NCBI GenBank assembly: GCA_022452285.1
Contig: JAKUNG010000009.1
Location: forward strand, 62,001-126,000
Source: Terriglobia bacterium
GTDB taxonomy: Bacteria > Acidobacteriota > Terriglobia > Versatilivoradales > Versatilivoraceae
Direction of reading: 5' to 3'
DNA length: 64,000 nucleotides
The notes below the pieces were generated by a model, which worked only from the letters and a program-made list of their open reading frames with translations, had not been told where the DNA came from and did no database searches. This document shows, piece by piece, positions 8,130 through 44,628 of the stretch; within the stretch, counting starts at the first letter, position 1; each line of letters begins with the position of its first letter. A program made the translations under genes and the position numbers.

Positions 8130-9107
8130 TTAGCGTTTAAGTTCAAAAACTTGCGGATTGACACACCACTGAGGCTTTTCTCCTTTTAAAACAGCTAAGA
8201 TGTCTCGACACATTGAATGATAGCAACGAGATTCAGCACCTGCAGTAGAGGCTAATATATGAGGGGATCCGATAAATTTAGGATGAGAAAATAGTGGGTG
8301 CTCAATTCTAGTTGGCGGTTCTTCGGGAAAAACATCTAAACCAACACCAGCTAACAGACCATCTTTTAGGCCTTCATAGAGAATATCCAAGTTTTCAATC
8401 AGGGACCCCCTTGCAAAATTTATAATATAAGCGCCTCTCTTAATTTTTTTTAAATTATTCTGATGGATTAATCCTCTTGTTTCCGGTGTTGCTTCTGCAT
8501 GGATCGTTATAACATCAGAGCTCTTTAATAAATCGTCAAGTGTTTTTAACTTTACTCCAAATTGATGGGTATCTTGGTCTGACAAGTAGGGATCATAACC
8601 AATGAGATTCACATTGAAAACTGCAGCACGCTTAGCTACTTCTTTTCCAATTCTACCTAAACCAATAATACCCCAAGTCTTTCCTTCTAACTCATCAGTT
8701 CGTTCGGTTAAACGTCGGCTCCACTCCCCTCGAAGCAAAACTCTGTGCCAGTAAAACAAATTTTTTGTTAAAGCCAGAACCATTGCAAGAGTAGCCTCAG
8801 CTACAGCCGAACCGAGCAGTGGAGCGTAAACTACTGGAATACCTCTAATTGTTGCAGCCTTAATATCAATATTTTCATAACCAGCGCCACTACGAGCAAT
8901 TACTCTCAACTGAGCACTTGCATCCATGATTTTTTCATCAATTGGAGAAAGTCCCCTACTAATCAAACAAACCGTCTCTGGTATTGACTGAATTAATGTT
9001 TGCTGATCATCTGCAGGAGCAGTCACAATTCTGTAACGGTGTCCTAACTCTTGGTGCGCAATAGGATCAATTGGAACAGTAGCTAGAATTTTTAGCTGTC
9101 TAGTCAT
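8130..9107 (-). CDS. D-isomer-specific 2-hydroxyacid dehydrogenase
   Basis: A 325-residue NAD(P)-dependent dehydrogenase of the SerA/glyoxylate-reductase family. The Rossmann motif GIIGLGRIG is near residue 150, the substrate Arg is in NFARGS, the acid residue in FPEEPP and the catalytic His in GSPHILA. There is no C-terminal ACT domain, so it is more like hydroxypyruvate/glyoxylate reductase than full SerA. It ends 19 bases before the M24 gene and probably shares its transcript. No clear ribosome binding site is seen before the ATG. It diverges from the gamma-glutamyltransferase gene across a 224-base promoter region. Confidence 0.9.
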   Translation of the reverse strand: MTRQLKILATVPIDPIAHQELGHRYRIVTAPADDQQTLIQSIPETVCLISRGLSPIDEKIMDASAQLRVIARSGAGYENIDIKAATIRGIPVVYAPLLGSAVAEATLAMVLALTKNLFYWHRVLLRGEWSRRLTERTDELEGKTWGIIGLGRIGKEVAKRAAVFNVNLIGYDPYLSDQDTHQFGVKLKTLDDLLKSSDVITIHAEATPETRGLIHQNNLKKIKRGAYIINFARGSLIENLDILYEGLKDGLLAGVGLDVFPEEPPTRIEHPLFSHPKFIGSPHILASTAGAESRCYHSMCRDILAVLKGEKPQWCVNPQVFELKR

Positions 9108-27319: not shown

Positions 27320-29039
27320 ACTAAACCTTATTAACAAGTTTATCTTTTTGTTTAAACATCGAGGATTCATTTTAAATGTATTCTTTTTTTTGGTTGTCCT
27401 GGCATTTCTTTCCCCTAGTTTTCCATTAGTTTTCTCCAACCCTGTCTCTCAACCTCTTTTAATTCGGTTCGAAGATGTTACAGAAAAAGCAGGATTGCGA
27501 TTTCGTCACAACAACGGTGCTTTTGGCATGAAGTATCTCCCAGAAACAATGGGTTCGGGACTGGCTTTCTTAGACTATAACAATGATGACTGGCAAGATA
27601 TTTTATTAATCAATGGCAAAAATTGGCCAAATCGAAAAAAATCTCAATCATCGATGGCTCTTTATCGGAATAACAAGGATGGAACATTTAAAGATGTCAC
27701 TAAACAGGTTGGTTTACATTCAACAATTTATGGAATGGGATGTGCAATTGGGGACTATGATAATGATGGTTGGGTTGATATCTATATTACAGCCCTTGGT
27801 CTAGACCATCTTTTTCGTAACAATGGCAGTGGAAGGTTCATTGACATAACTAAGGAGTCTGGATTACATAATCCTGATTTTGGTGCAAGTGCTGCTTGGT
27901 TTGACTATGATCTTGATGGTGACATCGATTTAATTGTTACTAACTATGTCCAATGGACTATCAAGAATGACATACACTGTAGCCTAGACGGAATTAATAA
28001 ATCCTATTGCACACCCGAGTCTTATAAGGGAGTTTCATCTCGCCTTTTCCAAAATGTTGGAAATGGTACTTTTTCAGATGTCACTGATGAATCAGGCTTA
28101 TTTGATTCAACAAGTAAGGCACTTGGAGTAGCTGTTCTAGATTCAAATGCTGATGGCTGGCCAGACTTTTTCCTCGCAAATGATACTCAACCAAATAAGC
28201 TTTATATCAACCAAAAAGATGGCACATTTAATGACCGTGGTATTCCATCAGGGGTTGCCATTAGTGAAGATGGAACCGTACGTGCAGCAATGGGCGTAGA
28301 TGCAGCAGATTATGATGGCTCGGGATTACCAAGTCTCGTCATTGGAAATTTTTCTAATGAAATGTTAAACCTTTACCACAATGAAGGAAGGGGTATTTTT
28401 GTAGATGATGCCCCGACTTCTGCAGTAGGTCAATCAAGTTTGCTAACTCTAGCTTTTGGCTGTTTCTTTTTTGACTTTGATTTGGATGGAAAACTTGACA
28501 TTTTCGTTGTCAATGGTCATGTTGAGAATGACATTAATAAAGTCCAACGTAGGGTCACATATGCACAGTCCCCGCACTTATTCCATAATCAAGGCAAACA
28601 ATTCATTGAAGTCACAGATAAAGTAGGTTCAGATCTAAAGAAGCCAAAAGTTGGCCGTGGCACTGCCTATGGAGACTATGATAATGATGGTGACCTAGAC
28701 CTCTTGATATCTAACAATGGTGGTCCAGCTGTTCTATTGAATAATCAAGGAGGTAACCAAAACAATTATTTAAGAGTCAAGTTAATTGGGACAAAAAGTA
28801 ATCGTGATGGGATTGGTGCTAAGGTCAAAGTTAAGCTTCCTAGTGGTTCTCTTTGGAAACAAGTTAAAAGCGGCAGTAGTTACTGCTCTCAAAGTGAATT
28901 ACCTGTTACTTTTGGAGTCGGAAAGAATACTAAGATCTCTAGTGTGGAAGTACATTGGCCTAGTGGAAAATTAGAAAATTTTTCCAAAGTATTAGCTAAC
29001 CAACGCATCATCATTAAAGAAGGATATGGAATTCAATAA
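27312..29039 (+). CDS. FG-GAP/VCBS repeat protein with ASPIC/UnbV domain (CRTAC1-like)
   Basis: A 575-residue exported protein. After a hydrophobic signal (VFFFLVVLAFLSPSF) come calcium-binding FG-GAP/VCBS repeats of the form DYDNDGWVDIY, recurring to about residue 480, then the ASPIC/UnbV domain (NYLRVKLIGTKSNRDGIGAK to VEVHWPSGK). The frame is open from 27144, but ATG 27312 overlaps the previous stop as ATGAATAA, so translation is coupled to the cytochrome gene. The family is predicted to form a beta-propeller in the envelope; its biochemical role is not known. Pairing with a multihaem cytochrome suggests a joint surface or periplasmic complex. Confidence 0.88.
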   Translation: MNKLNLINKFIFLFKHRGFILNVFFFLVVLAFLSPSFPLVFSNPVSQPLLIRFEDVTEKAGLRFRHNNGAFGMKYLPETMGSGLAFLDYNNDDWQDILLINGKNWPNRKKSQSSMALYRNNKDGTFKDVTKQVGLHSTIYGMGCAIGDYDNDGWVDIYITALGLDHLFRNNGSGRFIDITKESGLHNPDFGASAAWFDYDLDGDIDLIVTNYVQWTIKNDIHCSLDGINKSYCTPESYKGVSSRLFQNVGNGTFSDVTDESGLFDSTSKALGVAVLDSNADGWPDFFLANDTQPNKLYINQKDGTFNDRGIPSGVAISEDGTVRAAMGVDAADYDGSGLPSLVIGNFSNEMLNLYHNEGRGIFVDDAPTSAVGQSSLLTLAFGCFFFDFDLDGKLDIFVVNGHVENDINKVQRRVTYAQSPHLFHNQGKQFIEVTDKVGSDLKKPKVGRGTAYGDYDNDGDLDLLISNNGGPAVLLNNQGGNQNNYLRVKLIGTKSNRDGIGAKVKVKLPSGSLWKQVKSGSSYCSQSELPVTFGVGKNTKISSVEVHWPSGKLENFSKVLANQRIIIKEGYGIQ

Positions 29040-29153
29040 ACATAATATTAATAATATCTTAGACTCATCTAAACAATGAAATACATTAATTTATTAGAAG
29101 GAAAAGACTTCCCTAAAAATTAACATTCTAGAACATAAGAAGCATAGAAACCC

Positions 29154-32100
29154 ATGTCTCTTAGACCTCACAACAAACTCATTAGCTATCCCTTAGGTAT
29201 ATTATTTTTGTCACTGTTAATGTACTTGCTAATTTTAACTGGAACATTGAAGTCACCAATTGCAACACCGTTAGATTCCCACAAAACAACCCCTAGTTTT
29301 AAATCACCTGATGAGCAATTGGTCTACCACAACAATATTGGAATTGCACTTTTAGAACAATTCAACCATGAAGAGGCTTTAAAAGAATTCTCCCATTGTT
29401 TAGCTATAAAAAAAGATTTTCTCCCTGGGATCGTTAATAGCGCTCTTGCTTACTTCTACCTGCAACAATTTGATCAATCAGAAAAGTTTCTAAAACATGC
29501 TTTATGGATTAAAGAACGACAGCCAAACACATTATTTACTCTAGGAATGATATACAAGAACCAAGACAAATTAGATCTAGCTTTGGAATCTTTTAAAAAA
29601 GTTATTCTGCATGATGCTGAAGATCCACCTACACTTTATCAATTAGGGCAAATTTACCTTAAAAAACAGGAATATGTTCAAGCTGAATATTTCCTAAGTA
29701 AAGCAGTTCAGCTTTCTCCGTATGACACCGCGGCTCACTATAGTTTAGCCATGAGTTTGTTGCGCAAAGGCGAACAAGACAAAGGTAAAACAATGATTGC
29801 TAAGTTCATGAGCCTCAGAGAAAAAGGTGGGATTAGTTCCACTGGGACTCAATATGGCGAACAAGGCAAATACATGCTTGCCATTGGAGAATATCCTTAC
29901 ATTAGAAACTTGCTCCCTTCCCCAGTTATCCCTAAAGAACATAAGCAGATTCATTTTGTTGATGCTACTAAAACAACAGGTATTCATTTTAAACACGGGG
30001 CTGAAAGCAACAAAACTACTACTTCACAAATTGCCTCGAAACTGACTAGTCAATGGGTATATTCCATGGGGTCAGGAGCAGCTTTTGGAGATTATGACAA
30101 TGATGGACACTTAGATTTATTCATAGCTAATTGTGGACCAACACAATCAACCCGTCGCCCTGCTCTTTACCATAATAATGGCAAGGGACAGTTTTTAGAC
30201 GTGACTGAGAAAGCTGGGATTAAATATCAAGGTCAGGGTATGGCTGGATACTGGGGAGACTTTAACAATGATGGCTACCCTGATTTATTTCTATCAAATT
30301 ATGGTCCTAATGTTTTATACAAAAATAATGGAAACGGGACATTTTCTGATATTTCTGCCACGGCTGGTGTTGAGGGAGACAAACATTGGCACCTCCCTGC
30401 TGCTCCAGTTGATTATGACCACGATGGTGACCTTGACATTTATGTAGGACACTTTGCAAATTTAATGCAGAAGCCATTCAAAAAATCTTTTTTGTCGTTC
30501 AAAAGCTTTAAGGGACTTGGCTCTCATCTCTTTAGAAACAACGGCGATGGAACTTTTAGTGATATGGCAAATGCAACAGGCATCTTCAATCCTCTAGAGA
30601 AACTAAGTTCCATAGTTTTCACTGACTTTGATAATCGTCGTGATGTCGACTTTTGGAGTGTAGCTCAAGATGGAAATAGTAGACTTTACAGTAACCAACG
30701 AATTGGAACCTTTCTCGACCTCAGTCAACATTTAAGTTCTTTTAAGTCATATCCGTCTAATAGTATTTCAACAGCTGATTTAAACAAAGATGGGAGAGTA
30801 GATTTCTTACTGAGTCCTGAATTAGGCCCCTTAATCTGGATTAAGAACCTAGGCCAAATGACTTTTAAGGCAACAACTATTATGCCTTCAAAGGAGCTAT
30901 CTCCAAATAGTGGGAGTTGGTTGAGTCATGCCTTTGATTATGACAATGATGGAGATTTAGACGTGCTAGAACTCCGGAGTTCTAGCCCAAATCGTCCTAT
31001 GACCATAGGGGGACCTGAACTCTACCAAAACCTTGGAAACGAAACTTTTTCTCGAGTAACTGAAGAGACAGGTCTTAACAAATACCAAGGCAAGGCCTTC
31101 CGCAGTGCAACTTTTGGAGACTATGACAATGATGGAGACACAGATATCTTCTTAACTGTCAATAGTGATAAGCCCTTGTTGCTCCGCAACGAAGGAGGAA
31201 ATCAGAACCACTGGTTAAAAGTGCGCTTGTTAGGAACAAATAGTAATAAATCGGGTATTGGAACTAAAATTGAAATCAAGTCCGGAACTCTATGGCAAAA
31301 GCTAGAAGTGAATGGTGGCACTGCATATCTCTCACAGAATCCCCCGGAAGTTATTTTTGGACTTGGCCAACATCAGTCTGTCGATGCTTTGAGACTTTTA
31401 TGGCCAGGAGGGGTTTTGCAGTCTGAAACTAATCTCCCCATTAATAAGACACGTCTAGTTCATGAACTGGATCGTAAAGGCACTTCTTGTCCACTTCTTT
31501 ATACTTGGAATGGTTCTCAATACCAATTTATAACTGACTTTTTAGGGGGTTGTGCTATCGGGTATATGGTAGCTCCCGGTCAATACAATACTCCTGACAC
31601 AGATGAGTACATCAAAATCTCTCAATCCCAACTCAGAAAAAAAGATGGACGATATTCTTTGCGAATAAATAATCAGTTGGAAGAAGTTTTATACATTGAC
31701 CAAACAGAGCTATTAATAATTGACCATCCCAAAAATATAGAAATCTACCCTAACGAACGCCTGATGCCAAGTCCTCCTTTCCCAAAGCACAAGATCATTT
31801 CTGCACTTGGAGCACAGCCTCCTCAATCAGCAATGAACGGAAATGGACAAGATGTACTTCCTTTAATTACCAGGGTCGATCGGAAATATCCTAGTGATTT
31901 CAGGCTTCTACCTTTCAAAGGTTATGCCGAAGAACATTCATTAGTTCTAAACTTAGGAGACCTTAGTGGGTCAAAGAAAGTTAATTTACTGATGACCGCA
32001 TGGATCGATTATGCTGATTCAACTTCTAATTTTCAAGCAGCCCAATCGGGGACCAAATTAGTACCACCTTATCTTCAGGTTAAGAATAAACAGGGACAAT

Positions 32101-32807
32101 GGGAAACGGTAATCTATAACATGGGGTTTCCTGCAGGACTACCTAAAACTATGATTGTGGACCTTACTGATAAATTTCTTACTTCAGATTATCATGTAAG
32201 AATTGTTACAAACATGCGTATTTACTGGGACCAAATACTCGTCAATACATTTAATGGCCAACCAACCTTGCGACAATATCGTATAGGTCCTCAATTAGCA
32301 CAGCTACGTTTTGGTGGATTTCCAAGAGAGTACAGTCCTGACGGTCGCCTTCCCCTTATCTATGATTATAACTGGATCAAGGGATCAGCTCCTTGGAAAA
32401 GCCATCTTGGGAACTATACTCGTTATGGCCCTGTAACAAACCTGTTAAAAACCCTAAATGATATGTACGTAATCATGAGAACTGGCGATGAAATTCATCT
32501 AGAGTTTGATGCTTCTAAATTGCCTAAACTTTACAAAAATTGGGAACGCACCTTCTTCTTTTTTGCTGATGGTTTTGGCAAAGACATGGATTTGCACTCA
32601 GCAAAACCTGAAAGGGTCACCCCATTGCCATTTCATGCAATGAGCACTTACCCATACCCTGAAGAGGAGGCTTATCCAAATTCTGCCCAGCATAAGCGTT
32701 ATCAAAAAGAATTCAACACTCGTCATATTTCTGACACCTACAGTGACATCAATACCAACGAATCTTCTCGAAGGTCTTTACCAAGTCAAGGAGTACCTAA
32801 GAATTAG
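29154..32807 (+). CDS. Large TPR + FG-GAP + ASPIC/UnbV envelope protein
   Basis: A 1217-residue protein with one N-terminal membrane anchor (residues about 13-32), four or five TPR repeats (about 55-225), FG-GAP/VCBS repeats with DYDNDGHLDLF-type calcium loops (about 290-680), an ASPIC/UnbV domain (NHWLKVRLLGTNSNKSGIG, about 683-760) and a C-terminal region of about 450 residues. That region opens CPLLYTWNGSQYQFITDFLGG and has no name I recognise, although a similar extension occurs in CRTAC1-like proteins of other phyla. It lies 114 bases after the previous UnbV gene. A scaffold role is inferred from the repeats; no catalytic motif was seen. Confidence 0.85.
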   Translation: MSLRPHNKLISYPLGILFLSLLMYLLILTGTLKSPIATPLDSHKTTPSFKSPDEQLVYHNNIGIALLEQFNHEEALKEFSHCLAIKKDFLPGIVNSALAYFYLQQFDQSEKFLKHALWIKERQPNTLFTLGMIYKNQDKLDLALESFKKVILHDAEDPPTLYQLGQIYLKKQEYVQAEYFLSKAVQLSPYDTAAHYSLAMSLLRKGEQDKGKTMIAKFMSLREKGGISSTGTQYGEQGKYMLAIGEYPYIRNLLPSPVIPKEHKQIHFVDATKTTGIHFKHGAESNKTTTSQIASKLTSQWVYSMGSGAAFGDYDNDGHLDLFIANCGPTQSTRRPALYHNNGKGQFLDVTEKAGIKYQGQGMAGYWGDFNNDGYPDLFLSNYGPNVLYKNNGNGTFSDISATAGVEGDKHWHLPAAPVDYDHDGDLDIYVGHFANLMQKPFKKSFLSFKSFKGLGSHLFRNNGDGTFSDMANATGIFNPLEKLSSIVFTDFDNRRDVDFWSVAQDGNSRLYSNQRIGTFLDLSQHLSSFKSYPSNSISTADLNKDGRVDFLLSPELGPLIWIKNLGQMTFKATTIMPSKELSPNSGSWLSHAFDYDNDGDLDVLELRSSSPNRPMTIGGPELYQNLGNETFSRVTEETGLNKYQGKAFRSATFGDYDNDGDTDIFLTVNSDKPLLLRNEGGNQNHWLKVRLLGTNSNKSGIGTKIEIKSGTLWQKLEVNGGTAYLSQNPPEVIFGLGQHQSVDALRLLWPGGVLQSETNLPINKTRLVHELDRKGTSCPLLYTWNGSQYQFITDFLGGCAIGYMVAPGQYNTPDTDEYIKISQSQLRKKDGRYSLRINNQLEEVLYIDQTELLIIDHPKNIEIYPNERLMPSPPFPKHKIISALGAQPPQSAMNGNGQDVLPLITRVDRKYPSDFRLLPFKGYAEEHSLVLNLGDLSGSKKVNLLMTAWIDYADSTSNFQAAQSGTKLVPPYLQVKNKQGQWETVIYNMGFPAGLPKTMIVDLTDKFLTSDYHVRIVTNMRIYWDQILVNTFNGQPTLRQYRIGPQLAQLRFGGFPREYSPDGRLPLIYDYNWIKGSAPWKSHLGNYTRYGPVTNLLKTLNDMYVIMRTGDEIHLEFDASKLPKLYKNWERTFFFFADGFGKDMDLHSAKPERVTPLPFHAMSTYPYPEEEAYPNSAQHKRYQKEFNTRHISDTYSDINTNESSRRSLPSQGVPKN

Positions 32808-32949: not shown

Positions 32950-33360
32950 ATGTCTTGGATTAGTTCTCCAATAAAAAGCTCTCTATGGAAAGTTCTGTTT
33001 TTCTTGGTGGTAATTTTAGTCACCTCAACACTCATTTATCTCAATACAAATAGTCCTTTTTGGACATTTTTTTCAATAATTGTCCTAATAATTAGTGTTC
33101 ACGACTTCTTAACTCCAACGACTTACCAGTTAACAGAGGAAACTGTTTCAAGTAAAAATACCTTTTTTCATCGAAAGAAAAACTGGTCATCCTTAGGTTC
33201 TTACTGGATAGATAAAAATGGGATCTTTTTGAGCCCTTTTAACCAACGCTGTAGGCTCGAAGGATATAGAGGTTTATATCTCCGCTTTTCAGGGACGGAT
33301 CGCCAACTCGTTATGAATTTTGTCAAACGAAAGTTTGATGAACAGAATAGCAATGACTAG
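32950..33360 (+). CDS. Small two-helix membrane protein of unknown function
   Basis: A 136-residue protein with two hydrophobic helices (about 13-31 and 35-52) and a soluble C-terminal part rich in beta-prone residues, which could be a PH-like domain. No family is recognised. AAGGA lies 10 bases before the ATG. The next gene starts 8 bases after its stop, so it is the likely first gene of the MutL-like/DUF6754 operon, although a 142-base gap separates it from the UnbV gene upstream. Confidence 0.7.
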   Translation: MSWISSPIKSSLWKVLFFLVVILVTSTLIYLNTNSPFWTFFSIIVLIISVHDFLTPTTYQLTEETVSSKNTFFHRKKNWSSLGSYWIDKNGIFLSPFNQRCRLEGYRGLYLRFSGTDRQLVMNFVKRKFDEQNSND

Positions 33361-33368
33361 GATCTTGC

Positions 33369-33725
33369 ATGCAATCTATTCTAAAACTCTTAAAGAATGC
33401 CTTTTCTCTTGAACGATATCAACGGCCTCTTACTGAGTCAGACCGTCAATTATTAAATCGACTGGCAAAAGAAATTATCCAGCGTGAAATGCAGGTTCCC
33501 GCAATTTTTATTCTTGAGTCAGCTAAACCCCTTAGTTATTTGGGCAGTCAGGCCTTGGCTTTTTTTCAGCCAATCCTTAGCGGACTATTTGTGGGCAATG
33601 ATTACAAACAAATCCAAAACATATTAGAACGCAGTCATAGCATTGATTTTTTATTGCAGATTCTCGAAAAACAACAAGAAAAACATGGAAAAGAACTAAA
33701 TCCATGTGAGGAGACCAACCACTGA
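33369..33725 (+). CDS. Small conserved-looking cytoplasmic protein in the MutL-like operon
   Basis: A 118-residue, mostly helical protein. The central stretch VPAIFILESAKPLSYLGSQALAF is unusually distinctive, and I recall similar short proteins beside MutL-like/DUF6754 genes in other phyla, but I cannot name the family. It has one moderately hydrophobic region and no clear signal peptide. Its TGA stop overlaps the CTG that appears to start the MutL-like gene, so the two are probably coupled. A partner or adaptor role in the module is inference. Confidence 0.65.
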   Translation: MQSILKLLKNAFSLERYQRPLTESDRQLLNRLAKEIIQREMQVPAIFILESAKPLSYLGSQALAFFQPILSGLFVGNDYKQIQNILERSHSIDFLLQILEKQQEKHGKELNPCEETNH

Positions 33726-35539
33726 CTTCTTTAGATAATATACAGGTTATTTTAGCAACCGATTGCGGAAGTACAACCACTAAGGCGATTCTAATACAAA
33801 AAATTCAGAATCAATACCGCCAAACTCATCGTGGTGAAGCGCCAACATCTGTTGAAGCACCTTTTGAGGACGTAACAATAGGCATCATTAATGCTGTTAC
33901 CGAGATTGGCGAATTATCGGGTAGAAAATTGATTAACGATGAGGGGCACATTATTCGTCCAGCATTAGGAAATATCGGTTGTGATCTTTATATTTCTACT
34001 TCTAGTGCAGGTGGGGGGCTCCAGATGATGGTTGCAGGTGTAGTCAGATCAATGACAGCTGAAAGTGCCGAACGAGCGGCATTGGGGGCTGGATCAATTG
34101 TAATGGATGTGATTGCTTTAAATGATAAACGCTTGCCGCACGAACGCATTGAACGAATCCAGTCACTCAGACCCGACATGATTCTTATAGCTGGAGAAAC
34201 TGATGGTGCTAATACGGATAAGGTAATAAAGATAACAGAAACGATTGGAGCTGCAGATCCCAAACCTAGGCTTGGATCAAATTTCAAGCTACCCGTCATC
34301 TATGCAGGCAACAAGATTCGTAGAGATGAGGTAAAAACGATTCTAGAGGAAAAGACTGACCTTAATATCGTAGATAATTTACGGCCTACCCTAGAAGAAG
34401 AAAGACTTCTTCCAGCTCGAGAAAAAATTCACAACCTATTCCTTGAACATGTGATGAAACAAGCACCTGGTTATGGAAAATTAATGAAATGGGTTGATGC
34501 AGACATTATGCCTACTCCAGCTGCAGTTGGTGCAATTCTTAAAAGAGTAGCTACAGAAAAAAATATCAATGCTGTTGGCGTTGACATCGGGGGAGCTACC
34601 ACAGATATTTTTAGCTTATTCGAAGGAGAATTTAATCGAACAGTCTCAGCAAACTTAGGAATGAGTTATTCAATTTCCAATGTGCTAGCTGAATCAGGAC
34701 TTCCCAATCTTATTCGTTGGATACCTTTTGGTTTAGATGAGCGAGACCTAAGGAATCGAATCAAGAATAAGATGATTCGTCCTACTACAATCCCCCAAAC
34801 CCTCGAGGAACTCATCCTTGAACAGGCAATTGCAAAAGAAGCTCTGCGTCTATCTTTCATACACCATAAAGCCTTTGCTACGCGTCTAAAAGGAGTCCAG
34901 CAACAAAGAACAATTTCTGATTCTTTCGACCAAGATACTGATTCTCAATCAACTATTGAAATGTTGGATTTAAATCTACTGGTTGCTTCAGGTGGTGTGC
35001 TCTCCCATGCCCCCCAACCAGAACAAACTGCCATGATGCTCATAGATGCCTTTCTCCCAGAAGGGATAACCCAGTTGGCTAAGGATAGTATTTTTATGAT
35101 GCCCCACCTTGGAGTGTTATCACAAATACACCCTCAAGCTGCGACAGAGGTCTTTGAGAATGACTGTCTAATATATTTAGGCACCTGCATAGCACCTAGA
35201 GGAATAGCAAAAAAAGGTCGAAAAGCTTTAAGTTTTTCAATACAAAAACCAGACGGAAAAGTTGAAAAAGATATTTTAAAAGTTGGTGAAATGAAACGAA
35301 TTACACTTGACATAAATAGTAAAGCTCAGCTTAATCTGGACCCCAGCAGCGAATTTGATGTTGGACAAGGAAAAGGAGTACCTTTGAACGTATCTGTTAG
35401 AGGTGGATCAGTTGGAATTATTTTCGATTGCCGTGGCCGTCCATTATCGCTACCCAAAATTTCTGATGAGAGAATAAATCAGCTAAAACTTTGGTTTCGA
35501 ACACTAGATGTTTACCCTGAAGAAGCTGAAAAAATATAA
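33722..35539 (+). CDS. MutL-like (glutamate mutase L family) ASKHA ATPase, apparent CTG start
   Basis: This 605-residue protein has the actin/Hsp70-like fold of the glutamate mutase L family. Two phosphate-binding motifs are visible: LATDCGSTTTKA at residues 11-22 and GVDIGGATTDIFS near residue 283. Starting at the first GTG, TTG or ATG (33929) would cut off the first ATP motif. The frame opens after a stop at 33707-33709, and the only near-standard start is CTG 33722, about 8 bases after GAGGAG and overlapping the previous stop as CTGA. MutL is associated with B12-dependent glutamate mutase, but no mutase subunit is nearby, so another role in the membrane module is likely. Confidence 0.85.
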   Translation: MTSLDNIQVILATDCGSTTTKAILIQKIQNQYRQTHRGEAPTSVEAPFEDVTIGIINAVTEIGELSGRKLINDEGHIIRPALGNIGCDLYISTSSAGGGLQMMVAGVVRSMTAESAERAALGAGSIVMDVIALNDKRLPHERIERIQSLRPDMILIAGETDGANTDKVIKITETIGAADPKPRLGSNFKLPVIYAGNKIRRDEVKTILEEKTDLNIVDNLRPTLEEERLLPAREKIHNLFLEHVMKQAPGYGKLMKWVDADIMPTPAAVGAILKRVATEKNINAVGVDIGGATTDIFSLFEGEFNRTVSANLGMSYSISNVLAESGLPNLIRWIPFGLDERDLRNRIKNKMIRPTTIPQTLEELILEQAIAKEALRLSFIHHKAFATRLKGVQQQRTISDSFDQDTDSQSTIEMLDLNLLVASGGVLSHAPQPEQTAMMLIDAFLPEGITQLAKDSIFMMPHLGVLSQIHPQAATEVFENDCLIYLGTCIAPRGIAKKGRKALSFSIQKPDGKVEKDILKVGEMKRITLDINSKAQLNLDPSSEFDVGQGKGVPLNVSVRGGSVGIIFDCRGRPLSLPKISDERINQLKLWFRTLDVYPEEAEKI

Positions 35540-35543
35540 AACT

Positions 35544-36668
35544 ATGGCCTTTTCCTATACTCCAGGACTGAAAGTAAGTGAGAAGGAACTAATTGTTCGC
35601 CGACGGATGTTACCTCTTAAAGGAGAGGTTTTAGTTCGAAATGAAGATCAAGTTAATTCTGAAGACATAATTGCTAGAACACTTCTGCCTGGTAAAATTG
35701 AAATTATAAACGTTGCTAACAAGATGGGTATTGATCAGGGTGATGTTCCTTCTGCCATGATTAAAAAAGAAGGAGAATTCGTCCATAAAGGTCAAACTAT
35801 TGCGGAAAGCAAATCTTTATTTGGACTATTTAAGTCTCATGCTACTGCTAATTTTAGTGGGACTATTGAAAGTGTTTCCAGTGTGACTGGACAGGTTATT
35901 CTCAGAGGTGCCCCCCAATCAATTGAAATTAATGCCTATTTAAAGGGAACGGTAATTGAAATAATCCCTGACCTGGGTATAGCTATTGAAAGTTGGGGTA
36001 CTTTGATTCAAGGTATTTTTGGAATTGGTGGAGAAACCTCTGGAAAAATCACAATGGCATCAAATTCACCGGATCAAATTATTGATGAAAGTGTCATTAG
36101 CCAAGAATATCGAGGTAAAATTATTGTTGGGGGCTCTCTGGTTACAGGAAACGCTTTAAAGTTAGCCTCTCAGCTCGGGGTTCGAGGAATAGTGGTCGGT
36201 GGATTTGATGATCAAGATCTACGTGATTTTCTAGGATATGATTTAGGTGTGGCAATCACAGGCCATGAAAACCTTGGTGTTACAGTAATTGCAACGGAAG
36301 GATTTGGAAAAATTAATATGGCTCCTCGCACTTTTGAATTGCTGCGCCAAAATCAAGGTCAATTAGCATCAATTAACGGTACAACTCAAATTAGAGCTGG
36401 TGTTATAAGGCCAGAGGTTATCATTCCCAGCACAGCTTCTAAAAAGGATGTCTTTGTCCAACCAAAGGGCTTAAATGTTGGCACTTCCGTTCGTATCATA
36501 CGCAATCCCTATTTTGGTCAGCTGGGCACAGTGAAAGATTTACCAATGGAGTCGTCTATTCTAGATTCAGGGTCTAAAGCTCGAGTAGTTTTAATCCAGC
36601 TAGACAATGACAACCGTCCAGTATTAGTACCTCGAGCCAACGTTGAAATCATTGAGGACAACGATTAA
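35544..36668 (+). CDS. Barrel-sandwich (RnfC/biotinyl-like) and KOW-like protein of unknown function
   Basis: A 374-residue soluble protein. The N-terminal third resembles a lipoyl/biotinyl-type barrel sandwich (EGEFVHKGQTIAES ... FSGTIESVSSVTGQVIL), as in RnfC, but without the carrier lysine motif. A glycine-rich centre follows (IFGIGGETSGK, VGGSLVTGNAL, VRGIVVGG) and a KOW-like C-terminus (VRIIRNPYFGQLGTV). The frame is open from 35508, but ATG 35544, 4 bases after the MutL-like stop, avoids a 32-base overlap. It shares one base with the next gene (TAATG). The combination is not one I recognise. Confidence 0.75.
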   Translation: MAFSYTPGLKVSEKELIVRRRMLPLKGEVLVRNEDQVNSEDIIARTLLPGKIEIINVANKMGIDQGDVPSAMIKKEGEFVHKGQTIAESKSLFGLFKSHATANFSGTIESVSSVTGQVILRGAPQSIEINAYLKGTVIEIIPDLGIAIESWGTLIQGIFGIGGETSGKITMASNSPDQIIDESVISQEYRGKIIVGGSLVTGNALKLASQLGVRGIVVGGFDDQDLRDFLGYDLGVAITGHENLGVTVIATEGFGKINMAPRTFELLRQNQGQLASINGTTQIRAGVIRPEVIIPSTASKKDVFVQPKGLNVGTSVRIIRNPYFGQLGTVKDLPMESSILDSGSKARVVLIQLDNDNRPVLVPRANVEIIEDND

Positions 36669-37909
36669 TGAACATTTTTTTATTAGTAACATGGCTACTA
36701 TTTGGTATGGGATTCTCTTCTAACTGGCAACAGGAACCAGTGATCGATTTAGATTCTGAACAGCCCGCATTTAGAGTCAAGGCAATTGATGTCCCAAATG
36801 ATTCAGGGGATGGAATCATTATCAGGTGGGATGTTTTGTTAAATTTTAAAGTGATATCCTACGAAATTCTCTGGTCACTTGATCCCCAGGCAATACATGC
36901 AGATATAGTCAAAGTTCAATCTAACAAATCAAGCTTAAAGAACGACGCAAAAAAATATTGGCAATCCCTAGCAACCGTTGGAAACAAAACTGATTCTAAA
37001 GTTTTTCATAATGCTCAGCCTGGAACAAAATACTACTTTAAGGTTTTAGCTAAAGGAACTCAGACTACTATGACTTCTAATATTGTAGAAGGCTACTCTA
37101 AAGCACAGTGGTTTGACCGCTCAAAATTATCAATTCTAGTCCTTGGTGGGATAATTTGTTTTTCTGTCATCTTTTTCATTCAAGTTGCCCGAAAGGGTAA
37201 AAAGCTTTTTGTTCGTAAAATCGCTGGTTTAGAAGCTATTGACGAAGCTGTTGGACGGGCAACTGAGATGGGGAAACCTATAGTTTTTGTTCCTGGGATA
37301 GGTGATTTAGATAATGTTCAAACATTAGCTGGTCTCACGATTCTTGGATATGTTTCAGAGACAATTGCAGAATACGATGCTAAGTTGGACGTACCAGTTA
37401 GTCGGTCTCTAGTAATGACAACTGGCAGAGAAATTGTGAAACAAGCTTATCTAACCGCTGGCCGGCCAGAAGCATATAACGAAAATATTGTACGATATCT
37501 AACCGATGAACAATTTGGTTATGTAGCTGGTGTTAACGGCACCCTACTTCGTGATGAACCTGCAACGTGTTTCTATATGGGCGCCTTTTTTGCTGAGTCC
37601 TTACTATTAGCAGAGACAGGCAATCGAATTGGAGCAATCCAAATTGCTGGTACAGCAATGCCTTCTCAACTGCCCTTTTTCGTCTCCGCCTGTGACTACA
37701 CACTGATCGGTGAGGAATTATTTGCGGCAAGTGCCTACCTCAGTCGAGATCCCCGACAACTTGGCAGTTTAAAAGGACAGGATGTAGGAAAATTAATTGT
37801 AATGGTGACAATCATAATTGGTAGTATTGCTGCTACTGTAGCAGCTTGGACAGGTAATGAAAGTTTAGATTGGTTTGTAAATTATTTAAAAACACAAATT
37901 TTTATTTAG
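36668..37909 (+). CDS. DUF6754 membrane protein
   Basis: A 413-residue protein. The N-terminal signal or anchor is followed by a fibronectin-III-like stretch (ILWSLDPQAIH ... GTKYYFKVLAKG), a transmembrane helix (about 155-172), a conserved domain (KPIVFVPGIGD, TGREIVKQAYLTAGRPEAY, TAMPSQLPFFVSACDYTLIGEEL) and a C-terminal helix (about 380-398). The last motifs match DUF6754 as I remember it. Its ATG overlaps the previous stop by one base. Function is unknown; the location between an ATPase and membrane proteins suggests a core part of an envelope complex. Confidence 0.78.
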   Translation: MNIFLLVTWLLFGMGFSSNWQQEPVIDLDSEQPAFRVKAIDVPNDSGDGIIIRWDVLLNFKVISYEILWSLDPQAIHADIVKVQSNKSSLKNDAKKYWQSLATVGNKTDSKVFHNAQPGTKYYFKVLAKGTQTTMTSNIVEGYSKAQWFDRSKLSILVLGGIICFSVIFFIQVARKGKKLFVRKIAGLEAIDEAVGRATEMGKPIVFVPGIGDLDNVQTLAGLTILGYVSETIAEYDAKLDVPVSRSLVMTTGREIVKQAYLTAGRPEAYNENIVRYLTDEQFGYVAGVNGTLLRDEPATCFYMGAFFAESLLLAETGNRIGAIQIAGTAMPSQLPFFVSACDYTLIGEELFAASAYLSRDPRQLGSLKGQDVGKLIVMVTIIIGSIAATVAAWTGNESLDWFVNYLKTQIFI

Positions 37910-37916
37910 GCATAAT

Positions 37917-38750
37917 ATGCGTCGACAAGTGCCCCTTTTAATTACTTTTGTGGTAGGTATGATTATGCTGCTAGAAGCATTTGTCCCACATCCACCTTTC
38001 GATGAAATAAATGAAAAGCTCACTGCAACTTTTAATGTTCTTGCTGTTTTTGCCTTTATTCTTGGTGGAGGGAATTTAGTAAAAATCCATCTGGGTCAAA
38101 TCCACCGTAAAAATCCGGGTTGGGGTTACAGCCTTGTCACAATGTTAGGCTTTTTCTTTATTCTGGTCGTTGGTCTCTTTAAATTTGGAGCTGACAGTTT
38201 TAAACAACCCTTAGAGTCTACGGGTACTTGGTTTTACCTAAACTACGAATATTGTTTGCGTCCTTTACAAGCAACTATGTTCTCCTTATTGGCTTTCTTT
38301 GTAGCATCTGCTTCTTATCGTGCCTTTCGAGCTAAAAATAGAGAGGCAACTATCCTGCTAATTGCTGCATTTACAATTCTATTAGGAAGGACACTAATTG
38401 GGACAGCTTTAACAGATTACTTTCCAGGTTCTCTTGAACTTTTATTAAGTACTCTACTTGCTTTCATCGCTACGGGAATGTACAAATCCAAACGATGGGT
38501 TTCATTCGTTACTCTATGTATCATTATCATTGTTGTTTTAAGCCGAACATTATACGGATATTCTGTTCTGCTTGTTAATGAAGAATTCAATCATTTAACT
38601 ATTCCCAGCTTAGTAAACTGGATAATGCTAGTGCCGCAATTGGCAGGACAACGAGCCATTATGATTGGCATTTGTTTGGGTATCATTTCAATGTCTCTGC
38701 GAATTATTCTTGGTGTAGAGCGTTCCTATCTAGGGACTGAAAATGATTAG
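37917..38750 (+). CDS. Multi-pass membrane protein in the MutL-like/DUF6754 operon
   Basis: A 277-residue protein with about seven or eight hydrophobic helices, starting with LLITFVVGMIMLLEAF. A short soluble loop (KIHLGQIHRKNPGWGY) is the most distinctive hydrophilic part. It starts 7 bases after the DUF6754 stop. No family is recognised and there is no obvious charged transport motif, so it may be a structural membrane subunit. Confidence 0.72.
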   Translation: MRRQVPLLITFVVGMIMLLEAFVPHPPFDEINEKLTATFNVLAVFAFILGGGNLVKIHLGQIHRKNPGWGYSLVTMLGFFFILVVGLFKFGADSFKQPLESTGTWFYLNYEYCLRPLQATMFSLLAFFVASASYRAFRAKNREATILLIAAFTILLGRTLIGTALTDYFPGSLELLLSTLLAFIATGMYKSKRWVSFVTLCIIIIVVLSRTLYGYSVLLVNEEFNHLTIPSLVNWIMLVPQLAGQRAIMIGICLGIISMSLRIILGVERSYLGTEND

Positions 38751-38758
38751 GAGTACTA

Positions 38759-39637
38759 GTGGCTAATATGAACAAGTCATTAATATCTGGGTTACAAACA
38801 CTAGATCGTAGGTATGTTTTCCTATTTATGGTCATTGCTGTAATCATTCCTTTTGCTTTTGATCTTTCATTTGATGAAGTAGCAACTCCAGAAGTTCAAG
38901 CAATTTTCCAATTTATTGAAAAACTACCAGAAGGTGCAAAAGTACTAGTACCTTTTGACTTTGATCCTCCTAGTGAACCAGAACTTAAACCAATGGCTGA
39001 TAGTTTTGTTCGTCATCTTTGCCAACGCAAACAAAAAATTTATTTCATGGCCTTGTGGCCAATGGGTCAAGCAGAAACTTTGGACACAGTTAACCGTGTT
39101 ATTAAGCAAGAGTTTCCACAATACATCTATGGAAAAGACTATGTCATGCTTGGATATAAGCCAGGGGGACCAGGGGTAATTCAGCTTCTTCTAAGTAATT
39201 TTAAAGAATCATACCCCATCGATGCCATGGGTACACCGATTGCAGAAATACCCATGATGCAAGATGTTAGAAAGCTCGAAGATATGGATCTAATTCTTAA
39301 TGTCAGTGCTGGCTCTCCTGGTTTAAAAGAATGGATCCAGTTTGGTTCAGATCGCGCTGTAACGCCAATTGGAGGAGGAGTGACAGCTGTCATGGCTCCT
39401 TTATTATATCCCTACTATCCCAAACAACTGAGTGGACTTTTAGGTGGATTGAAAGCAGCTGCAGAATATGAATCACTCTTAATTACCACTTATCCAAAAA
39501 CTTACAGTAAGGATCCCCAAGTATTTGCCGGAATTAGGAGAATGGGCCCTCAAACCTTAGCTCATTTGGTAATAATCTTTTTTATTGTCATTGGTAACAT
39601 CGCCTACTTTGTTACAAAAAGAAAAAATACGGATTAG
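38759..39637 (+). CDS. Bitopic membrane protein with a large extracytoplasmic domain
   Basis: A 292-residue protein with one helix at each end (residues about 18-36 and 265-285) and a mixed alpha/beta domain between them. Notable sequences are GAKVLVPFDFDPPSEPEL, MALWPMGQAET and GYKPGGPGVIQLL, suggesting a Rossmann-like fold of unknown function. The start is GTG 38759, five bases after AGGAG; the next ATG (38768) is too far from that site. It begins 8 bases after the previous gene. No catalytic motif was recognised. Confidence 0.72.
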   Translation: MANMNKSLISGLQTLDRRYVFLFMVIAVIIPFAFDLSFDEVATPEVQAIFQFIEKLPEGAKVLVPFDFDPPSEPELKPMADSFVRHLCQRKQKIYFMALWPMGQAETLDTVNRVIKQEFPQYIYGKDYVMLGYKPGGPGVIQLLLSNFKESYPIDAMGTPIAEIPMMQDVRKLEDMDLILNVSAGSPGLKEWIQFGSDRAVTPIGGGVTAVMAPLLYPYYPKQLSGLLGGLKAAAEYESLLITTYPKTYSKDPQVFAGIRRMGPQTLAHLVIIFFIVIGNIAYFVTKRKNTD

Positions 39638-39671
39638 TGTGCCCATTTATTAAAAAGCATACAACATTGAA

Positions 39672-40466
39672 ATGAAAAACCTGAACCAGCGATATACCGT
39701 CACAATACTTATAAGCTTCATTATGCTCTTAATGATCATTTGGAGCACACTTGGTCCCATGGAAGGATTTTGGATAAGTGGGCAAAGTCTTGGAACCTGG
39801 TTTGCAGCATTTTTAACATTATCGGTTCTAAGCTTTCTCTACCAAGACAATCCCTTTTATCGCTTTGCAGAGTCGCTTTTTATTGGGGTATCAGCAGCCT
39901 ACTGGATGGTCCAAGGAATTTGGGTATATATCGTTCCCGAAATTCTAGGGAAGCTAATGCCAGCAATTGTTAATGAATATTTAGCCGAAGTTCCGGTAAA
40001 AGTTAGCATGTTTGATACAAGCATAGCTCTTATTCAATTAATCCTTGGAGTTTTATTACTCTGGCGACTTGCTCCTAAAGGAACCTGGATCGCACGATGG
40101 CCTTTGGCTTTAATCGTAGGTTGGTCTGCAGGAACAAATTTAACACGTTATCTCGTAAGTGATTTCACAAAACAGGTTTCCCCTGTTTTAATCCCCTTAG
40201 TTGTAAAAAGTCCAACAGATTTCCTAGGGATCTCGTGGACAACGACTTTTACAGCTATCATTAGTGTATTTGGACTTGTTTCAGTACTAATCTACTTTTT
40301 CTTTTCTTTAGAACATAAGGGAGTCATCGGTCAGATTTCACGAGTAGGGATTTGGATACTGATGATTACCTTCGGCGCAGCTTTTGGTTATACAGTAATG
40401 GGACGGGTTGCCCTTTTGGTAGGTCGGATGGAATTTTTATTTGTAGACTGGCTTAGATTTTTTTAA
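39672..40466 (+). CDS. Multi-pass membrane protein, last gene of the module
   Basis: A 264-residue protein with about seven hydrophobic helices. A distinctive segment, YQDNPFYRFAESLFIGVSAAY, lies near residue 56, and I recall similar text in membrane proteins next to DUF6754 in other phyla. Spacing to the previous gene is 34 bases. It is convergent with DUF309 beyond a 172-base gap in which I saw no clear intrinsic terminator. Confidence 0.7.
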   Translation: MKNLNQRYTVTILISFIMLLMIIWSTLGPMEGFWISGQSLGTWFAAFLTLSVLSFLYQDNPFYRFAESLFIGVSAAYWMVQGIWVYIVPEILGKLMPAIVNEYLAEVPVKVSMFDTSIALIQLILGVLLLWRLAPKGTWIARWPLALIVGWSAGTNLTRYLVSDFTKQVSPVLIPLVVKSPTDFLGISWTTTFTAIISVFGLVSVLIYFFFSLEHKGVIGQISRVGIWILMITFGAAFGYTVMGRVALLVGRMEFLFVDWLRFF

Positions 40467-42458: not shown

Positions 42459-43151
42459 ATGAATACCTTTAATTTTCAGAATCAACCAATTGCTGTATTC
42501 AGCGATTTCGATGGAACAATTGCGCATCCCGATACGATTAACTTCTTAACAGAAATCCATGGCGGCCTAGAGTTTCGTCGGAAGATAAGTCGAAGAATCA
42601 GATCTGGAGAAATTACTTTAAGACAGGGAATTTCTGCTGAAATTTCTACCATTAAGGGAAGTCTCAATGAAGTCTTAGAATTTTTAATTCCTCAAGTTAG
42701 GATTGACAAACACTTTCCGTTATTTGTTAATTGGTGTCTAAAAAATGATATTCCAGTAACCATTTTAAGTGCTGGGATTAAAGAAGTTATCGAACAGATA
42801 CTAGCTCCTCATAATCTAAACAATCTTCAACTACGTGCTAATTCTCTAGAAATTGTGAATGGCTGTTGGACACTTAATTTTCTTGACGAATCTCCTTGGG
42901 GACATGATAAAAGTACGGCATTAATAAAAGCAAAGTCAGAAGGTTATAAGACTGTTTTTCTGGGAGATGGTCTCTCTGATTTAAGAGCGGCCGAAAAAGC
43001 AGACTTAGTTTTTTCTAAAAGAGAATTGACCAAACTCTGTCAAGAAAATTCCCTACCGTGTATCCCCTTTGAAAATTTTTCCCAAATAAATATTCAAATT
43101 AAACAACTATTAATGAAAGGAACGATCAAATATTCTAGCAGCACCGAATAA
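42459..43151 (+). CDS. HAD-family phosphatase (MtnX/phosphoserine-phosphatase-like)
   Basis: A 230-residue haloacid-dehalogenase phosphatase. Motif I is FSDFDGTIAHPD (nucleophile Asp near residue 16), motif II is VTILSAG, and motif IV is FLGDGLSDLRAAEKAD. The DTINFLTEIHGG cap region resembles MtnX, the methylthioribulose-salvage phosphatase, but no other salvage genes are nearby, so phosphoserine or another small phosphate is possible. It appears to be a single gene with no good binding site. Confidence 0.85.
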   Translation: MNTFNFQNQPIAVFSDFDGTIAHPDTINFLTEIHGGLEFRRKISRRIRSGEITLRQGISAEISTIKGSLNEVLEFLIPQVRIDKHFPLFVNWCLKNDIPVTILSAGIKEVIEQILAPHNLNNLQLRANSLEIVNGCWTLNFLDESPWGHDKSTALIKAKSEGYKTVFLGDGLSDLRAAEKADLVFSKRELTKLCQENSLPCIPFENFSQINIQIKQLLMKGTIKYSSSTE

Positions 43152-43251
43152 TTTAGATTTTGCTAAATCGTCAAAATTTTATACCTATCTGTTTCAATCA
43201 TTGGACTGAAATTAGCACCTATTATTTTTTGTATTTAATCCGGAGTTATAT

Positions 43252-44628
43252 ATGACCCTACGATTTTTTAAGAATACTGTCTTTTTAACATCTATTTTAT
43301 TTCTTCTTAACTTAGTATCTACAGATTGTCTGGCTGATCCACTCAATTCAAATCATTCTTGGATTCATACTTCGGTTAATCAAGAGTATCCTGCTTTATT
43401 TCAACTGTACAAACATCTTCACGCTAACCCCGAGATTGCCTTTCACGAAGTGCAAACTTCTACTCGTATAGGTCAAGAATTGCATGATCTAGGTTTTCAG
43501 GTAACCACACCCTTTGGAGGATATGGGGTTATTGGAATGCTTAAAAATGGAGAAGGCCCAACACTTATGTTAAGAACTGACCTTGACGCTCTACCAATTA
43601 TTGAAGAAACAGGGCTAGAGTATGCCAGCAAAGTTAGAATCTTGGATTCTACAGGAAAGAAAATTGGGCTAATGCACGCTTGCGGGCATGACATCCACAT
43701 GACTTGTTTCATTGGAACAGCACGGCTTCTAGTCAAATCAAGGGATCAGTGGAATGGGACTCTTCTAATGGTTGCCCAACCAGCAGAAGAACGTGGAGCT
43801 GGTGCTAGAGCTATGTTGGCTAAGGGTTTATTTAAAAAATTTCCACTACCAAATTTCGCAGTCGCTCTTCACAATGATGCTGGGATGCCGGCAGGACAGG
43901 TCGGTATTTGTCCAGGAAATGCTTTAGCTGGAGTTGACTCAGTTGACCTAACAATTCGAGGAGTTTCAGGACATGGAGGCTATCCGTCTACAACCAAAGA
44001 TCCCGTTGTATTGGCAGCTCAAACCGTACTCTCCTTACAAACAATTGTCAGCAGAGAAGTCCCTGCCATTCAACCTGCTGTAGTAACTGTTGGCTCTATC
44101 CATGGAGGAACTAAACACAGTATTATTCCTGAGGAAGTTAAACTCCAGTTAACTGTCCGGTATTACGATGACAGTACCCAAAAAATAATTTTAAATGGCA
44201 TTCAACGCATATCTGAAGGAATTGCAAGAGCGGCTGGAGTTCCACTGGAACGCAAACCTATAATGAACATATTAGATAGTACACCGCCTACTTATAATGA
44301 CCCCGCATTATCTAGACTTGCTAGTCAGGCTATGGCTGAGATATTAGGGCAAGACAATGTTTTGAGTCTGTCTCCCGTAATGGGTGGAGAAGATTTTGGA
44401 CTTTATGGTCGAACTCCAGAAAAAATTCCTCTCTGTATGTTCTGGCTAGGGGCCGTCTCACCAGATAAATTTAAAGAAAGCCGTGAACAAAAAGGAAAAT
44501 CACTACCCTCTCTTCATTCAAGTATTTATGCGCCAGCACCTGAGCTAACTATTAAAACAGGGGTCAAGGCCTTAACAGCTATTGCTGTTAAGCTACTTAA
44601 TACTAAATCTTATAAGTTGACAGATTAG
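43252..44628 (+). CDS. Secreted M20-family amidohydrolase
   Basis: A 458-residue zinc/manganese hydrolase of the hippurate hydrolase or aminoacylase type. An N-terminal signal peptide (FFKNTVFLTSILFLLNLVS, cleavage likely after CLA near residue 28) makes it periplasmic or secreted. Metal residues are visible in HACGHDIHM near residue 143 and QPAEERGAGA near residue 180, and a late His in PSLHSS. The lid-domain text RGVSGHGGYP is typical. GGAG lies 8 bases before the ATG. It probably releases amino acids from N-acyl or amide substrates outside the cell. Confidence 0.9.
   Translation: MTLRFFKNTVFLTSILFLLNLVSTDCLADPLNSNHSWIHTSVNQEYPALFQLYKHLHANPEIAFHEVQTSTRIGQELHDLGFQVTTPFGGYGVIGMLKNGEGPTLMLRTDLDALPIIEETGLEYASKVRILDSTGKKIGLMHACGHDIHMTCFIGTARLLVKSRDQWNGTLLMVAQPAEERGAGARAMLAKGLFKKFPLPNFAVALHNDAGMPAGQVGICPGNALAGVDSVDLTIRGVSGHGGYPSTTKDPVVLAAQTVLSLQTIVSREVPAIQPAVVTVGSIHGGTKHSIIPEEVKLQLTVRYYDDSTQKIILNGIQRISEGIARAAGVPLERKPIMNILDSTPPTYNDPALSRLASQAMAEILGQDNVLSLSPVMGGEDFGLYGRTPEKIPLCMFWLGAVSPDKFKESREQKGKSLPSLHSSIYAPAPELTIKTGVKALTAIAVKLLNTKSYKLTD

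Follow-up and report, generated by a model that had tools for sequence, protein, structure and literature searches.

A MutL-like ATPase and a DUF6754 membrane cassette form a gene module conserved across bacterial phyla and may constitute a shared-drive inner-membrane system

Most ASKHA (actin/Hsp70-fold) proteins are switches, chaperones or filament scaffolds. MutL-like ATPases (PF13941) belong to the same fold class as PilM and FtsA, and their best-known members reactivate glutamate mutase or another B12 mutase; the true GlmL proteins of Peptoclostridium, Prevotella and Rhizobium are 461-467 aa long and are encoded between glmS and glmE. In the PilM (type IV pilus), GspL (type II secretion) and FtsA systems, a soluble ASKHA protein accompanies inner-membrane proteins with extracytoplasmic domains. 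A different arrangement is found in the ECF group II transporters, where one cytoplasmic energising unit, an ABC P-loop ATPase, serves several membrane partners of different specificity. DUF6754 was not mentioned in the open-access literature that we searched.

The window analysed here, a 64,000-nucleotide stretch of DNA from Terriglobia bacterium, carries eight plus-strand open reading frames (ORFs) at 32950-40466, which we named g1 to g8 (Table 1). According to the ORF listing, the largest inter-gene gap is 34 bases, and the successive distances from g1 to g8 are +8, −4, −32, −1, +7, +8 and +34. The g3-g4 distance becomes +4 if the family-aligned ATG of g4 at 35544 is used. Consensus promoters and terminators were no commoner in the operon region than in shuffled sequences.

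Table 1. Genes of the operon, with positions in the window and the basis of each assignment
Gene and product	Position	Strand	Basis
g1, small membrane protein	32950..33360	+	ORF, TM prediction, family alignment, sub-threshold Pfam matches
g2, small soluble, probably helical protein	33369..33725	+	ORF, 18-member alignment
g3, MutL-like ASKHA (actin/Hsp70-fold) ATPase, 605 aa	33722..35539	+	PF13941, motifs; start inferred
g4, multi barrel-sandwich-hybrid protein with KOW-like C-terminal segment	35508..36668	+	Recurrent sub-threshold matches, fusions
g5, DUF6754 protein	36668..37909	+	PF20539, Fn3 matches, AlphaFold, topology
g6, polytopic membrane protein, about six TM helices	37917..38750	+	Alignment, topology, invariant residues
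g7, TM - Rossmann-type domain - TM protein	38759..39637	+	AlphaFold, topology, invariant residues
g8, polytopic membrane protein, about six TM helices	39672..40466	+	Alignment, topology, invariant residues

To place the operon among bacteria, we scanned 84,980 species genomes with a DUF6754 alignment and obtained at least 561 confirmed relatives. The best 80 of these came from Acidobacteriota, Zixibacteria, Eisenbacteria, Planctomycetota, Gemmatimonadota, Marinimicrobia, Calditrichota, Cloacimonadota, Coatesbacteria, Electryoneota and one Verrucomicrobiota MAG, which may be misbinned. Among the matches listed, the nearest relatives of the window were acidobacterial. The order g1-g8 was identical in Acidobacteriota, Planctomycetota, Marinimicrobia, Eisenbacteria and the Verrucomicrobiota MAG, and was complete at 14 examined loci including the window, and in addition at the Eisenbacteria locus L128. 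At a Gemmatimonadota locus (L127), g1, g2, g3, g5 and g7 were found in order, and a genome search located g4 between g3 and g5. Proteins g3 to g8 share about 40-65% identity with their counterparts in other phyla. That all eight genes recur in this order in several other phyla is far beyond chance. The preliminary description had reported a closely packed operon with several overlaps, which the ORFs and inter-gene distances confirmed, and had placed MutL-like proteins beside DUF6754 in distant phyla. This proved right: the neighbourhood is conserved well beyond close relatives. At least five phyla have the genes in full order, and about ten, among the matches listed, have the membrane cassette.

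The genes flanking g1-g8 differ between phyla, which sets the limits of the module at g1 and g8. We also tried to read a function from the neighbours and abandoned the attempt, since the genes outside g1-g8 change between phyla and the recurrent ones are lineage-specific, such as fatty-acid-synthesis-like genes in Phycisphaerales and PEP-synthase-like genes in Zixibacteria. A defence function was likewise rejected, because none of the eight proteins had a PADLOC match at E 0.1. Directly upstream of the operon (27144-32807), the window encodes two adjacent secreted proteins of the FG-GAP/ASPIC (UnbV, CRTAC1-like) type, of which the second has TPR repeats. FG-GAP secreted proteins as companions of the cassettes were discarded, their strands and distances being inconsistent. 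Further along, at 42459-44628 and downstream of GAPDH, lie a HAD-family phosphatase and an M20 peptidase. Similar-looking ORFs occupy a similar place in a relative (L012), so these surroundings seem conserved within the family.

The distribution of the module is uneven. In the window's own phylum it was present in only 6 of 396 genomes, and this rarity makes it probable that the window's lineage acquired it by transfer. DUF6754 was found in 76 of 294 sampled Planctomycetota genomes, and g3/g4 in 64 of 100 sampled Marinimicrobia genomes.

In profile searches of 91 sequences, many of them short contigs, with the window proteins as starting point, we observed g5 in 90, g6 in 84, g7 in 82 and g8 in 71, with g4 in 49 and g3 in 40. 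Two units can be distinguished: unit A, made up of g3 and g4, usually with g2, and unit B, made up of g5-g6-g7-g8. Unit B was complete and in order at 94 of the 104 g5 copies not cut by a contig end, and g4 directly followed g3 in 34 of 40 cases, with two more in which the genes are fused. The copy numbers of the two units differ. Across 46 genomes, the module-type MutL occurred once in nearly all, long paralogues apart, and full-length g4 once in each, except that it was missing from one genome and another had a match only in a long paralogue; nearly all of these genomes are MAGs, and their incompleteness may affect single-copy and absence counts. DUF6754 was present in 1-7 copies per genome, with more than one copy in 25 of the 46. 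This implied that one unit A serves several units B. In Zixibacteria, two or three unit-B cassettes lie in tandem. In the g5 tree these tandem copies largely group by position across genomes and so are old, separately kept paralogues.

One Coatesbacteria locus (L141, G072:C1:380000-392000) departs from the usual arrangement. There an inverted stretch of about 6.6 kb carrying g4-g8 divides the module MutL gene into two parts of opposite orientation; the stretch is flanked by 110-nt inverted repeats (92%; L141:2268-2377 and 8966-9075) that lie within the MutL coding sequence. An invertible switch, a fixed inversion and a misassembly are all conceivable explanations.

The start of g3 had to be deduced, as its N-terminal region has no nearby ATG, GTG or TTG, and the conserved N-terminus requires a CTG at 33722. 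This codon overlaps the g2 stop (ACTGA), a GGAG precedes it by about eight bases, and the frame is open over 608 codons. The first ATG/GTG/TTG in frame is at 33929, and starting there loses the first ATP-binding motif; gene callers restricted to these three codons would thus shorten g3 by 69 residues. The protein matches PF13941 MutL at 406 bits (cut-off 27). In the alignment, its family keeps the phosphate motifs DCGSTTTK and VDIGGATTD as well as SGGV, and with these ATP-binding motifs intact g3 may bind and hydrolyse ATP. Structure searches returned no solved close relative of g3 or of g4.

Compared with GlmL/MutL (NF040745, PF13941), g3 belongs to the same ASKHA ATPase family, with nucleotide-binding motifs intact over residues 4-484, and it is over these residues only that it shares 24-29% identity with true GlmL. 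Unlike GlmL, which ends at the MutL domain after about 460 aa, g3 carries a conserved extra C-terminal domain of about 125 aa, and it adjoins a membrane cassette instead of mutase genes. Against the GlmL equivalog it scored 215.7 bits (cut-off 475), against glmL_fam 156.6 (204) and against the OR-4 equivalog, a GlmL-like protein of ornithine degradation, 206.6 (600); three g3 relatives from other phyla also fell below the GlmL cut-off, and they missed it, as g3 did, by more than half. The 40 module ATPases formed one clade apart from GlmL with support 97/93, although the program warned of long branches to GlmL. Glutamate mutase E was not found in the host genome (3.24 Mb), nor above cut-off in any of 46 other module genomes, whereas three true glmE records used as positive controls matched at 660-780 bits. 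Ornithine aminomutase was matched in none of 45 genomes, but no control genome matched either. Judged from these comparisons, g3 is not a mutase accessory protein, because glmE is missing, the GlmL cut-off is failed, the module ATPases form their own clade and an extra C-terminal domain is present. The preliminary description had seen no mutase subunit here, and for subunit E this extends to the whole host genome and, above cut-off, to all 46 others. Its further views, that the locus is no metabolic accessory and represents an undescribed conserved system, gain support from the missing glmE together with the gene order kept across phyla.

The partner of g3 is less easily recognised. Among 26 relatives of g4, Biotin_lipoyl was matched in 15, RnfC_N in 11 and KOW in 7, while the barrel-sandwich and KOW matches of the window copy were each below cut-off. 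No TM helix was predicted in g4. In three Marinimicrobia loci (L048, L083, L092), g3 and g4 are joined in a single reading frame. Stand-alone MutL paralogues of 960-1050 aa from Eisenbacteria and Cloacimonadota likewise carry g4-like sequence at their C-terminus, and so provide a second case in which the ATPase is paired with a barrel-sandwich protein. Such long MutL plus g4-like proteins, encoded away from g5-g8 at L121, L122, L123 and L124, make up a second branch of the family. We consider that g4 may act as a soluble adaptor of the ATPase.

Two small proteins are encoded at the head of the operon. g1 has two predicted TM helices followed by a soluble tail of about 80 aa, which is perhaps a bacterial PH-like domain; its family alignment spans 16-49% identity, and all its Pfam matches are sub-threshold (Cpta_toxin 0.0042; bPH_6 0.079 in a relative). 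g2 matched no Pfam or NCBIfam family. The alignment of its 18 members shows a conserved core, PAxxxLExxxPLNYxGSQxxxFFxP.

We then turned to the membrane cassette. g5 matches PF20539 (DUF6754) at 406 bits and is ordered as signal/TM, Fn3, TM 156-174, DUF6754 alpha/beta domain and TM 376-394, the Fn3 domain being matched by both a PDB profile search and Foldseek. The charge distribution places Fn3 outside and DUF6754 inside, a prediction that, like the topology of g1-g8 as a whole, uses hydropathy and charge only. The AlphaFold model of g5 has a mean pLDDT of 78.8, with 38 residues of low confidence in the most conserved part of DUF6754, and in its fold search the Fn3 domain dominated. Across phyla, mean pairwise identity is 74% in the DUF6754 core and 72% in MutL, against 27% in the Fn3 region of g5. 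The outer part of g5 is absent in L128 and reaches about 800 aa in L134. Three DUF6754 proteins (L134:2-3328, L136:3525-6359 and L137:1066-4023) have extracytoplasmic regions of about 580-800 aa, which contain beta-sandwich-like and coiled-coil sequence and matched no Pfam families.

The other three proteins of the cassette have invariant charged or polar residues in or beside their TM helices: R135, R138, R246 and R269 in g6; Q265, H269 and N280 of TM2 in g7; and E67, R132, R142, R245 and R252 in g8. AlphaFold modelled g7 as a TM-anchored Rossmann-type domain (pLDDT 88.1, pTM 0.87), predicted to be extracytoplasmic by the positive-inside rule. Its structure matches were weak and generic Rossmann only, e.g. 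TreT and BshA at TM 0.3, and neither DUF6754 nor g7 had a close structural match naming a substrate. Naming a function from solved structures was given up, since only the Fn3 part of g5 matches any among the eight proteins. In profile-profile comparison, a common origin of the alpha/beta domains of g5 and g7 received a probability of 5.5%, and one of g6 and g8 0.2%; both were rejected.

Several cassettes that vary outside and are invariant inside, together with one equally conserved ATPase pair, suggest a drive or switch unit that is common to the cassettes and docks on DUF6754. We propose, with a probability of about 0.5, that the operon encodes one undescribed inner-membrane system in which a shared cytoplasmic ATPase-adaptor drives DUF6754 membrane complexes. 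In this model, g3, held to the adaptor g4 and probably to g2, would be the single shared drive unit of the cell and would dock on g5 at its DUF6754 domain, which is near-invariant and predicted to be cytoplasmic. The ATP-driven opening and closing of g3 would then be relayed through the membrane bundle g5-g6-g7-g8, with its approximately 16 predicted TM helices and invariant buried charges. The motion would reach the outer parts, in g5 the variable arm with its beta-sandwich (Fn3-like) fold and in g7 the Rossmann-type domain, and these would most likely move, load or expose an envelope substrate. In genomes with several cassettes, one drive unit would serve several membrane complexes of differing outer specificity. 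Docking, ATP hydrolysis, force transmission, its direction and the substrate are the steps that we infer, and the words "ATP-driven" and "machine" used in the preliminary description likewise draw on intact motifs and predicted topology. The arrangement resembles the ECF group II transporters in its shared engine and PilM-type systems in seating an ASKHA protein at a membrane platform, but no component proved homologous in our tests, and no P-loop ABC ATPase was found among the eight operon proteins with Pfam or NCBIfam. With slightly less than even confidence, we see here a new class of ATP-driven membrane machine, with one ASKHA ATPase and its barrel-sandwich adaptor powering several interchangeable DUF6754 complexes that act on envelope substrates. 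To our knowledge, ASKHA proteins do not power membrane transport directly, which counts against the drive model.

A first alternative is an actin-like scaffold, in which g3 would be a nucleotide-gated assembly platform or anchor that organises the membrane complex, while something else, or ion flow through g6/g8, performs the work. The fold class common to g3 and PilM/FtsA and the position of a single soluble ASKHA protein beside several membrane proteins fit this idea, and the conserved charges in or beside the TM segments of g6, g7 and g8 could carry ions. We nevertheless regard it as unlikely: g3 has no Pfam or NCBIfam similarity to PilM, GspL or FtsA, the membrane partners are unrelated, and the MutL relatives are reactivation-type ATPases. 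Moreover, known scaffolds and their membrane partners usually come in equal numbers, but a single g3/g4 pair here faces up to seven cassettes. The same ratio could describe multiple receptors converging on one cytoplasmic unit, with the g5 outer domain sensing and DUF6754 signalling to a g3/g4 molecular switch. Fn3 domains often bind ligands, and a variable outside with an invariant inside would suit a receptor; such a role is still quite improbable, as no kinase, response regulator, cyclase or transcription factor recurs with the module, and two six-TM proteins with conserved charges plus an outer Rossmann domain exceed what a receptor needs.

Two further alternatives were weighed. An Rnf/Nqr-related, redox-driven ion pump with g4 as its RnfC/NqrA-like subunit would account for the RnfC_N and NQRA_N barrel-sandwich matches in g4 relatives beside polytopic membrane proteins. 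g4 indeed has the same barrel-sandwich-hybrid element as RnfC/NqrA and as the sandwich-barrel-hybrid insertions of RNA polymerase beta', but its matches are sub-threshold and common to Biotin_lipoyl, marking a fold element only. In addition, neither the window g4 nor two relatives contain any cysteine, hence no Fe-S site, which speaks against an electron carrier of the RnfC type; none of the eight proteins matched a flavin, NADH or ferredoxin domain or a redox family above cut-off; and g4 differs from these families also in lacking a polymerase context and in its fusion to a MutL ATPase in some lineages. We therefore consider a redox pump very improbable. Least probable, and already largely refuted, is that g3 reactivates glutamate mutase or another B12 mutase and sits in the operon incidentally: the best-known PF13941 proteins have this role and plasmid relatives lie in glmS-glmL-glmE operons, but glmE was not found in the host genome or above cut-off in the 46 others, g3 missed the GlmL and OR-4 equivalog cut-offs by more than half, its clade is separate and g4 follows it in 34 of 40 copies.

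The module bears on annotation and on membrane biology. PF13941 proteins are named "glutamate mutase L" or GlmL in public records; for the module ATPase clade this name would be wrong, and metabolic reconstructions using it would be misled. If the proposed mechanism is true, an ASKHA-driven, shared-engine design would join the known ways of powering membrane complexes.
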